Shown one piece after another: positions 30,222 through 42,816 of a DNA stretch of 64,000 nucleotides; position 1 is the first letter of the stretch; every line of letters begins with the position of its first letter. This stretch comes from Alternaria dauci. Lineage: Eukaryota > Ascomycota > Dothideomycetes > Pleosporales > Pleosporaceae. The DNA lies in NCBI RefSeq assembly GCF_042100115.1, contig NC_091275.1, forward strand, positions 2,480,001 through 2,544,000, read 5' to 3'. The position numbers were made by a program, and so were the translations under genes. Under the pieces are notes generated by a model that ran no database searches, was not told the DNA's origin, and saw only the letters and a program-made list of their open reading frames with translations.

Positions 30222-30292
30222 GCATTCTTGGTCCAACGGTAGGATAATTGCCTTCCAAGCAATTGGCTCGGGTTCGACTCCCGGAGGATGCA
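30222..30292 (+). tRNA. tRNA-Gly (anticodon TCC)
   Basis: A 71-nt cloverleaf without intron. The acceptor stem GCATTCT pairs with AGGATGC (one G-T pair). The D arm holds the A-box core TTGGTCCAACGG. The anticodon stem ATTGC/GCAAT carries the loop CTTCCAA with anticodon TCC, reading GGA. The T arm CGGG-TTCGACT-CCCG contains the B box. The discriminator base is A at 30292. A run of five T follows at 30300-30304. This is a complete and normal Pol III gene. Confidence 0.97.
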
Positions 30293-40089: not shown

Positions 40090-41875
40090 ATGCCGCTCCA
40101 GTCTCTCATAAGCTCGCTCCGGCGGCGTAGCCGTCGCGCTTCGCCTCCTCCAGCTCATCTGCAAGCCAATACTCAAAAGCTCGAATGGCGTCTTTTGGAC
40201 ATCTTCACGCGCATGTGGGATTTGGGCTTCACTGCTTTCGGGGGCCCACCTGTGCACTTTCAGATCTTGCATCGGAGATTTGTCGAGGGTTTGGGATTCC
40301 AGGGTGGGAGTAAATGGTTGGATGAACAGACTGTAAGTGTAAAAAAAGCAGCATATCTGATGTCGTTCGCAAAGAGACATTGTTCTCTCCCGTATCCATC
40401 CCACCTATCAGAGTGTCCGCACAACTGATCCCCTCACCTGTAGTATCAAGAACTCTTCGCAATATGCCAAGCTCTCCCCGGCCCAGCCTCAACCAAGATG
40501 TGTTTCTGCATTGCCCTCCTACACGCAGGCATCGTCTCCGCCGTCTTCGCCTTCCTCCTCTGGAGCCTCCCTGGCGCAATTGGCATGTATGGACTTTCCC
40601 TCGGCGTACAGAAGATGCCGGAACGTCTCCCTCCCATCGTTTACGCTTTGCTTTCCGGATTGAACGCCAGTACCGTTGGAATCATCGCACTAGCAGCTGT
40701 TCAGTTGTCCGAAAAAGCCATCAAAGACCGTGTCACACGCATTCTGGTGATATTTGGTGCATGTGCGGGTCTGTGTTATAATGCGCTATGGTACTTTCCC
40801 GTGCTAATTGTTATCGGCGGCTTTACGACCGTGATGTGGGATATTTGGTTGAGACAGCGTGTGGATAAGATGAAGGCTGCATATCATGCTAAAAGGAGGA
40901 GAGCGAGAGATGAGCAAGGTGACGCAGAGGAGGTTCAAGCTACAACACAGAGCATTCCTCTTGAGCTTACGCGTCCGGAAGCTGTAAAGAGGAGACAGTG
41001 GGCGGGCAGCGTGACAGATCGCATTGTGCCTGAGCGGGAAGAGGCGAGAAGGAGTCATGCTGGGGAACGGCCGGTTGTTGATGATGTGGCTGCGAAGAAT
41101 GATGCCGAGACCGTTGCACCTGTGGCGGATGTCAATACGCACAACATTTCTGTCAAGGTTGGTGTGTCACTCATCGTGGGCTTCCTGCTCTCCTTCATCA
41201 TCGTTATGGTTATCCGCGGTACGGTATCTAGCGGTCGGCTATTCAATCTCTTCTCCAACATGTAAGTTTCTCATCAAGCTACCTACCCTGCGCTTCCTAC
41301 TAATCGCACCACGCAGGTATCTTGCCGGCACCATCATATTCGGCGGCGGTCCCGTAGTAATCCCTCTACTGCGCTCCTATGTCGTAGACCCAGGATGGGT
41401 TTCACCTCGGGATTTTCTCCTCGGCCTGGCTATCATCCAAGCCTTCCCTGGCCCCAACTTCAACTTTGCAGTATACCTCGGTGCTCTGACCATCGCTTCG
41501 GCACCCGGTTCTACGCCAACCATAGTAGGCGCCCTTCTCGGTTTCATCGGCATCTTCTTCCCCGGTATTGTGTTGGCAGTCGGCGTGCAGTCTATCTGGC
41601 AGGTCATGCGCACCAAAGCATGGGTGCTCAGTCTACTAAAAGGCATCAATGCGACGGCTGTGGGACTTGTCTTTACGGCTGTCTACAGGCTTTGGGAGAT
41701 TGGTTATTTGACGCCAGAAAGTACTGATGGAAAGAGTTTGGCAGATGAGCCCTGGTGGGTAGTTGTTGCTGCGTTGGCCTACGCAGAGACGGCTTGGTTT
41801 GGGGTTCCACCTGCTGTGGCAATCATCATTGGTGCCATCCTAGGCCTGGGGTGGTATGGAGCTGTTGGGCAGTGA
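40090..41875 (+). CDS. Chromate transporter, two-domain CHR (ChrA-like) protein
   Basis: Three exons, 40090-40332, 40444-41261 and 41317-41875, give 539 aa. The protein has two related halves. Half one has LGFTAFGGPPVHFQILHRRF and QALPGPASTKM; half two has IIFGGGPVVIPLLRSYV and IQAFPGPNFNFAVYLG. These are the paired FGG-P-H/V and PGP signatures of the long-chain CHR family. About six hydrophobic segments per half are separated by a charged loop of roughly 110 residues. Bacterial members export chromate; fungal members are less studied and could move chromate or sulfate. The exon 1/2 and 2/3 joins fall between a signature and its continuation and restore them in frame. The end is the TGA at 41873-41875. 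tRNA-Pro lies only 55 bp downstream on the same strand. Confidence 0.92.
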
Positions 41876-41940
41876 AAACTTTTACAATATAGATCGATAT
41901 CAGGAGGAAAAACGCCAAGAAAAGCAATTCGGTCTTATGG

Positions 41941-41991
41941 GTAATTGGTCACCCGATCCATTTGGTTCTTACACCAGCTAACAAAAACCAG
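41941..41991 (+). other. Non-canonical tRNA intron A, spliceosome-like
   Basis: 51 nt between tRNA positions 10 and 11. The 5' end is GTAATT, the branch-like site is AGCTAACA near 41976-41983, and the 3' end is CCAG. Length, branch sequence and branch-to-acceptor distance match mRNA introns in this window. The border is ambiguous by one base because G occurs at both ends; the GT-AG choice is given. Confidence 0.82.
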
Positions 41992-42001
41992 TCTAGTGGT
42001 A

Positions 42002-42055
42002 GTACGTTCTCCTGTGAATTGATCCGATTAACAAATTTCTAACATTCGTTCTCAG
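42002..42055 (+). other. Non-canonical tRNA intron B, spliceosome-like
   Basis: 54 nt between tRNA positions 21 and 22. The 5' end is GTACGT, the branch-like site is TTCTAACA near 42037-42044, and the 3' end is TCTCAG. It is separated from intron A by a 10-nt exon (TCTAGTGGTA). Confidence 0.82.
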
Positions 42056-42071
42056 TGATTCTCGCTTAGGG

Positions 42072-42104
42072 ACGTTCTATCAGAACACAAACCCAAGCAC
42101 AGCT
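42072..42104 (+). other. Canonical anticodon-loop tRNA intron
   Basis: 33 nt directly 3' of position 37, the standard site for the tRNA splicing endonuclease. It contains a 5-bp hairpin (GTTCT-ATC-AGAAC, 42074-42086) and a CCC at 42092-42094 able to pair with the GGG of the anticodon loop, as expected for the anticodon-intron helix. Confidence 0.85.
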
Positions 42105-42147
42105 TGCGAGAGGCCCCGCGTTCGAGTCGCGGTAAGACCCGTCTTTC

Positions 42148-42152
42148 TTTTT
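42148..42152 (+). terminator. Pol III terminator of tRNA-Pro
   Basis: A five-T run eight bases after the discriminator base. It supports Pol III transcription of the whole interrupted gene. Confidence 0.8.
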
Positions 42153-42816
42153 GCTGCAAACGATATCAGAGCGTCGCTCTAGTCACCTCAATATGCTAGG
42201 TTCTTGCATATGTATAATGATGATTATTTGTACTGCAAATCGCTATCATTCTGTGCACCCAGAAGTCTTATCCTGGTAGTAGTTTTTGCTATATGCTCGT
42301 TCTTATTCTGTAACATCTCCTGCCGGCTTTAACATCTTCGATATTGGAGCGTACCCTTTCCCATAGACCATGCTGTGTTGCTCTCCCGCGTTGTGGGACC
42401 TACTCCATGCATAGATAGCAGTTTACGTTTTCGAATAAAGCTTGAAACCAATCTTGTTGTGGTCAAAGTAGATGAGTCAATGAATAAAATGCAATTGTGC
42501 ACCGTCGTGACTACCTGTTGTACAAACGCTAGCTACAGCTCATTCCGAAGAAGATGAGCAGGGGAGATGCAACCCGATAAAAGGACCTCGACCAGCCAGC
42601 AAAAAGAAAATACTAACAATGCTCAAACAGAGCTGAGCCCATGACCCCAAATAGTATGTTATCAACTCCAGGCACCGAAGCTAAAAAGAGAGAAACCCCA
42701 GCAAAACGCCATGACCTGCCAATAACCCCGAAGGAAAGTTGTAACCACCACGACCACAGAATAACATCATGATGTCCATAAAAACATGAGTCACAACCAA
42801 ACGATCGGCGTTTGGC
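42153..42816. other. Intergenic
   Basis: Sequence between tRNA-Pro and the stop of the small Ser/Tyr-rich gene on the minus strand. No further gene was recognised. Confidence 0.55.

Follow-up and report, generated by a model that had tools for sequence, protein, structure and literature searches.

Background

Is the segment at positions 41931-42140 of the window a nuclear tRNA-Pro(AGG) gene that is interrupted by two spliceosome-type introns in addition to the normal tRNA intron, as an earlier note on this DNA had proposed, and if so, which machineries would remove these inserts and in which order? The window is a 64,000-nt stretch of the Alternaria dauci genome (C4:2480001-2544000; the genome comprises 34.9 Mb in 10 contigs). 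Eukaryotic tRNA genes are said in one source to be limited to a single intron (PMC8450103), and tRNA splicing is said in another to proceed without the spliceosome (PMC13149111). The open-licence literature, a scope outside which preprints and most subscription papers lie, yielded no report of spliceosomal introns in nuclear tRNA genes.

The interrupted tRNA-Pro(AGG) gene and its three relatives

The gene contains two mRNA-type introns of 51 and 54 nt, along with an ordinary intron after nt 37, and is laid out together with its flanks as follows:

41888..41893, + strand: TATA-like stretch ATATAG, about 40 nt 5' of the tRNA, of a kind often seen ahead of tRNA genes in this genome, with a putative function
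41931..41940, + strand: exon 1 (nt 1-10), as delimited by ARAGORN after virtual splicing
41941..41991, + strand: mRNA-type intron 1, 51 nt, GTAATT..CTAAC..CAG, at the same site or one base earlier in the three other copies
41981, + strand: candidate branch A of intron 1, within CTAAC
41992..42001, + strand: exon 2, 10 nt, D arm; most of the A box is restored together with the CAG of intron 1
42002..42055, + strand: mRNA-type intron 2, 54 nt, GTACGT..CTAAC..CAG, at the same site in the three other copies
42042, + strand: candidate branch A of intron 2, within CTAAC
42056..42071, + strand: exon 3 with the anticodon AGG, 16 nt
42072..42104, + strand: ordinary tRNA intron, 33 nt, located after nt 37; its length is 17 nt in each of the three other copies
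42105..42139, + strand: exon 4, 35 nt, with the T arm, the B box (CGTTCGAGTCG) and the 3' acceptor strand
42140, + strand: discriminator base C, placed by tRNA convention
42148..42152, + strand: T5 run, candidate Pol III terminator

The exons of 10, 10, 16 and 35 nt add up to 71 nt, or 72 nt with the discriminator, which agrees with the 72 nt that the earlier note had counted after removal of three insertions. Its further statements on the structure hold as well: all seven acceptor and all five T-stem pairs at the locus are Watson-Crick, the 51-nt insert follows position 10, and the 54-nt insert comes after standard position 21, which is occupied by base 20 of the mature sequence. The GT starts, CTAAC elements and CAG ends, which had been likened to those of mRNA introns, indeed resemble the introns inferred in this genome. 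A CATCNA motif is absent upstream of this copy. The unspliced gene receives no ARAGORN call and no Rfam match at the gathering threshold, and a lenient Rfam scan of 41800-42300 gave three weak matches, none of them to tRNA; once the two inserts are removed, ARAGORN calls a tRNA-Pro(AGG) with a 33-nt intron. In the unspliced sequence of the whole window the sole tRNA found by ARAGORN and Rfam is a tRNA-Gly at 30222.

A genome search with the joined 71-nt sequence as query recovered four places and no uninterrupted match, and a search with the exact anticodon-arm pattern recovered the same four. One layout is common to all four copies found (on C4, C5, C6 and C10), which supports the proposed combination of two spliceosome-type introns with a normal one in a nuclear tRNA-Pro(AGG) gene. 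Intron 1 lies after nt 10 in the C4 and C6 copies and after nt 9 in those on C5 and C10, with GT..AG ends in each case. The acceptor strands read GGTCTTA/TAAGACC in the former pair and GGTCCTG/CAGGACC in the latter, such that two pairs have changed on both sides in a compensatory manner. The mature sequences of the four copies are 94-100% alike and their introns 50-88% alike, while their flanks are near the level of shuffled sequence. Two frequent matches of the anticodon-arm pattern, GTCTCTCGCTTTGGG and GATTCTCGCTTTGGT, were rejected as tRNAs, since visual inspection showed a coding sequence resembling a retroelement in one case and a subtelomeric repeat in the other.

A census of interrupted tRNA genes

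Candidates elsewhere in the genome were collected in two ways, namely as B boxes with a T run after them, of which the matches listed are a lower bound, and as B boxes preceded by a branch motif and AG, of which there were 24 as against 50 in a reversed control; a selection of these was then read. Compared with the one gene of the earlier note, this incomplete census currently stands at no fewer than 19 interrupted genes with 24 mRNA-type introns in nine isoacceptors:

Pro(AGG), 4 genes: introns after nt 9 or 10, and after standard position 21
Pro(CGG), 1 gene: intron between nt 34 and 35
Arg(ACG), 5 genes: intron 55/56
Arg(TCG), 2 genes: intron 53/54
Arg(CCT), 1 gene: intron 53/54
Ser(CGA), 1 gene: intron 53/54
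Ile(AAT), 1 gene: intron 52/53
Ser(GCT), 3 genes: intron 13/14, two with GC starts
Gln(CTG), 1 gene: introns 11/12 and 57/58

In 18 of these genes the introns disrupt the D or T arm, and in the remaining one the anticodon. Every copy found of Pro(AGG) (4/4), Arg(ACG) (5/5) and Ser(GCT) (3/3) is interrupted at the same site or one base off, where "every" refers to the copies found by a genome search that scores the best candidates only. The joined Arg(ACG) query matched five places, each match ending at nt 54, and all five were read; with joined Ser(GCT) as the query, matches beginning at nt 13 were obtained at three places, and three Ser(AGA) genes matched in addition. The joined Gln(CTG) query returned no match, not even its known copy, and is therefore uninformative on further copies. 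Uninterrupted copies exist for Ile(AAT) (four) and Arg(CCT) (one), and these constitute natural empty sites. For comparison, ARAGORN made 69 other nuclear-type calls in the sequence fetched, some of them doubtful, of which 45 have an insert near the ordinary place. Pro(TGG), His and Phe were absent from the nuclear genes read; one narrow genome pattern for Pro(TGG) had no matches. A pattern for the D loop and intron matched 44 stretches in a collection of viral contigs and 70 in one of genome contigs, collections from which near relatives were possibly left out; nothing resembling tRNA-Pro occurred among the 114 matches inspected.

Two further tRNA-like genes, at C1:988670-988990 (minus strand) and C1:347320-347630, have good acceptor, D and T arms and an anticodon loop enlarged by an insert of about 100 nt. 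These inserts could form a long hairpin; no uridine fits position 33, and the anticodon is unreadable. The cluster of mitochondrial-type tRNAs that is densely packed in C3:3342000-3400000, near the contig end, represents mitochondrial DNA that was inserted or joined there. Sequence from about 14 kb off many contig ends recurs every 25 kb or so (e.g. C1:14442; C1:6963573, 6988227, 7013502, 7038774; C4:15113-144464), and the ends seem to carry long tandem arrays of a unit of about 25 kb. A HET-domain protein encoded in this genome suggests, by the usual distribution of that domain, a filamentous ascomycete.

The inserts as probable spliceosomal introns

All 24 introns are 50-57 nt long, end in AG and have a CTRAY element 10-14 nt before the end; 22 start with GT and two with GC. 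By their starts and ends, branch motif and size they are best interpreted as U2-type spliceosomal introns, which would be spliced as such. As a standard of comparison we used mRNA introns inferred by joining reading frames, namely 28 in the window by a loose rule and 19, with a median of 54 nt, from 57 sources by a strict rule, both sets being unverified and including some doubtful cases. TTTT occurs within none of the 24 tRNA introns as against three of the 19 inferred mRNA introns, a difference that is not significant (p 0.08). Counting against a spliceosomal origin, exons 1 and 2 of the Pro(AGG) genes are just 9-11 nt long, which is very short for spliceosomal exons.

In a virtual splicing procedure, GT/GC..CTRAY..AG stretches were removed and an ARAGORN tRNA spanning the junction was required. 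This rescued a tRNA in 19 of the 58 regions read (729 variants), which are the 19 interrupted genes; since the regions had been chosen as candidates, this proportion is not a frequency. The same procedure rescued none of the 58 regions when reverse-complemented (399 variants) and none of 402 chunks of the window (2411 variants). Two runs with a more restrictive choice of donors rescued 12 and 11 regions out of 53, the second run being accompanied by controls. The anticodon given by ARAGORN differs from our reading in three of the 19 joined genes, the joined Arg(TCG) genes being named Leu(TAA) and one Ser(GCT) being named Ser(GGA), because the ordinary intron is placed otherwise. The program also calls wrong alternative joins in six true loci, and the anticodons given here are those of the manual reading. 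That the whole set reflects a chance likeness or an assembly artefact is a notion to which the original find, made by eye, might lend some color; nevertheless, with no rescue among the 402 chunks or the reverse complements, and with one layout recurring on four contigs amid unrelated flanks, it has a negligible probability.

Another explanation for the inserts is that they are ectopic tRNA introns of the sort known from archaea and the red alga Cyanidioschyzon, where the tRNA endonuclease cuts at bulge-helix-bulge (BHB) folds. Introns in the D and T arms, including position 53/54 and up to three per gene, are indeed known elsewhere (PMC4090602), and one reading of Pro(CGG) has all four central pairs of such a fold. 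However, a strict BHB test that included alternative boundaries was passed by none of the 24 junctions as against 30 of 3800 random pairs, i.e. the junctions are no more BHB-like than chance where the strict fold is concerned, which is in line with the earlier note's view that the inserts are unlike tRNA introns. Moreover, cleavage at such folds would leave the GT/GC, CTRAY and AG signals, present in 24 of 24 inserts, unexplained. We accordingly regard endonuclease excision of the inserts as very unlikely and retain the spliceosomal interpretation.

Conservation of the mature tRNAs

The interrupted genes might instead be pseudogenes whose inserts are never removed, with the tRNAs being supplied by other genes. 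Across the 19 genes all 228 pairs of the acceptor and T stems are standard (204 Watson-Crick and 24 G-U). One Arg(ACG) copy has both-sided changes at pairs 7-66 and 49-65, the latter of which flanks its intron. Among paralogs across the set the mature sequences are 92-100% alike and the introns 50-88%. Minimum free energy folds of two joined tRNAs were uninformative: they gave no cloverleaf and were no better than those of shuffled sequences. Single synonymous eukaryotic genes with insertions in the D or T arm are, according to one source, usually deemed pseudogenes (PMC4090602), and the pseudogene reading gains from the uninterrupted copies of Ile(AAT) and Arg(CCT), as well as from a census that is incomplete and a genome search in which only the best candidates are scored. 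Against it speak the conservation of exons beside diverged introns, the both-sided stem changes, the intact splice signals in all 24 introns, and the fact that among the copies found of Pro(AGG), Arg(ACG) and Ser(GCT) none is uninterrupted. Taken together, these observations make a set of pseudogenes exceedingly improbable and are better accommodated by genes whose introns would be removed. Thanks to their uninterrupted copies, Ile(AAT) and Arg(CCT) could be supplied without splicing, and not every interrupted gene is needed.

Promoters, terminators and the polymerase

A TATA-like element together with CATCNA lies upstream of six of the 19 interrupted genes, as compared to 31 of the 69 other tRNA genes and nine of 4000 random 80-mers; the remaining 13 interrupted genes are devoid of this motif pair as we defined it. 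A run of at least four T residues follows within 45 nt in 16 of the 19 (304 of 3000 random 45-mers). Of the three genes with no near T run, one has a T4 slightly further away and two precede another tRNA gene.

The B box scores at the level of tRNA genes in 14 of the 19 unspliced genes. It is untouched in eight of them, and in five the end of the intron re-creates it (AG|TTCGA or AG|GTTCGA; 13.6-15.7 bits). In Gln(CTG) the B box is split and the intron itself carries CGTTCAATTCC, at 12.4 bits. The five Arg(ACG) genes also have a split B box, and each of their introns has a TTCGAA motif whose B-box score does not exceed 8.1 bits and thereby falls short of both the weakest training box (10.5) and the 95th percentile of the background (9.2). 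The motif [AG]TTC[AG]A[AT], which was chosen after the introns had been seen, occurs in all six B-splitting introns, in none of the 18 other tRNA introns and in none of the 19 inferred mRNA introns. As to the A box, intron 1 of Pro(AGG) partly restores it with its end (8.2-9.7 bits versus 15.2 in the mature form), Gln(CTG) and Ser(GCT) have lost it or have a weak one, and overall it is weak or lost in at least seven of the 19 genes.

The motifs upstream, the T-run terminators and the B boxes, whether kept, re-made or borne by the intron, indicate RNA polymerase III as the probable enzyme. Transcription by RNA polymerase II, with mRNA-like splicing followed by trimming to tRNAs, would fit the usual occurrence of spliceosomal introns in Pol II transcripts and the splitting of the A box in Pro(AGG), Gln(CTG) and Ser(GCT). 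Though none of them is a direct test, the T-run terminators in 16 of 19 genes, the upstream motifs like those of tRNA genes and the kept or re-made B boxes run counter to this idea, which we hold to be unlikely in comparison with transcription by RNA polymerase III. For U6 there are at least two full-length genome matches that have no insert, so that not all Pol III genes of this genome carry such introns.

Some arrangements around these genes deserve mention in their own right. At C7:1600900-1601300 an interrupted Ser(GCT) directly precedes Ser(AGA), and at C5:646560-646860 an interrupted Arg(ACG) directly precedes Gly(GCC); neither pair has a T run in between and both may be co-transcribed. 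Approximately 80 nt downstream of Gln(CTG), in C8:593430-594300 (minus strand), lies a second fragment, CGTTCGATTCCGGGCAAGATC, whose B box is unsplit and which has a T run of its own. A dispersed family ending in GTTCGAAYCGCGTTRTTACTTYATCTTTTT, a B-box-like sequence plus a T run, was seen at more than ten places among the matches listed (including C1:1710305, C2:964267, C3:404205, C6:2202949 and C8:151864); it is not a recognizable tRNA and is possibly a Pol III repeat.

A proposed order of processing

Reading the polymerase, the splicing and the order of steps from the observed sequences, positions, splice signals and stems, we consider it very probable that at least 19 nuclear tRNA genes of this genome have U2-type spliceosomal introns, whose Pol III transcripts would be processed by the spliceosome first and by the tRNA endonuclease afterwards. 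Under this proposal the U2-type introns sit in the D arm, anticodon or T arm, mostly beside an ordinary tRNA intron. RNA polymerase III would rely on signals upstream and on a B box, either kept, re-made or borne by the intron, to make the precursor, and would stop at the T run. The spliceosome would then take out the 50-57-nt introns, upon which the D and T arms could fold, and the tRNA endonuclease and ligase would remove the ordinary intron, with the ends being trimmed last. The fungal tRNA endonuclease requires a folded mature domain to find its sites, and because the introns break the D or T arm or the anticodon, the spliceosome should act first. This narrows the order of the two systems, which the earlier note had left open.

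A part of the tRNA supply, to which all genes found for Pro(AGG), Arg(ACG) and Ser(GCT) belong, probably depends on the spliceosome before the endonuclease can act, and the introns are likely to have been selected to keep, re-make or carry the Pol III promoter. If the genes are spliced as their sequence suggests, short Pol III RNAs whose exons measure some 10 nt would be routine substrates of the spliceosome. Spliceosome activity would then be a direct requirement for translation, and the genes would offer a system for studying how introns settle in genes with internal promoters. As ordinary tRNA finders miss such genes, other genomes may hide more of them.

Comparison with known systems

Non-canonical tRNA introns have been described in archaea, a red alga and nucleomorphs (PMC4090602; PMC3978253). 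The genes studied here resemble those of archaea, Cyanidioschyzon merolae and nucleomorphs in having introns outside 37/38 and several per gene (PMC4090602). However, the archaeal and Cyanidioschyzon introns are cut by the endonuclease at BHB-type folds and the short nucleomorph introns are removed by an unknown route, whereas the introns described above show no BHB as tested and have full spliceosomal signals. An intron in 18S rDNA has reportedly been the subject of a paper, going by its title, and mRNA-type introns occur in the nuclear rRNA genes of lichen fungi. Like these ascomycete rRNA introns, the present ones are of the spliceosomal type and reside in a stable RNA made by a polymerase other than Pol II, but in this case the RNA is tRNA and the polymerase presumably Pol III, rather than rRNA and Pol I.

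A further close parallel is the U6 snRNA gene of Schizosaccharomyces pombe, which contains an mRNA-type intron and, as the earlier note had correctly pointed out, is a precedent for such an intron in a Pol III transcript (PMC10484740). That intron is thought to have been reverse-spliced in near the catalytic bases of U6, and the title of a 1990 paper cited in the same source states that Schizosaccharomyces U6 introns contain a match to the B box (PMC10484740), a feature shared by the Gln(CTG) intron of the present genome. The genes described here have signals of both kinds, spliceosomal and Pol III, and would thus probably be a second case of a spliceosomal-type intron in a short Pol III transcript. 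Unlike U6, which is one gene, they are many tRNA genes, interrupted in the D arm, the anticodon or the T arm and often by an ordinary intron as well.
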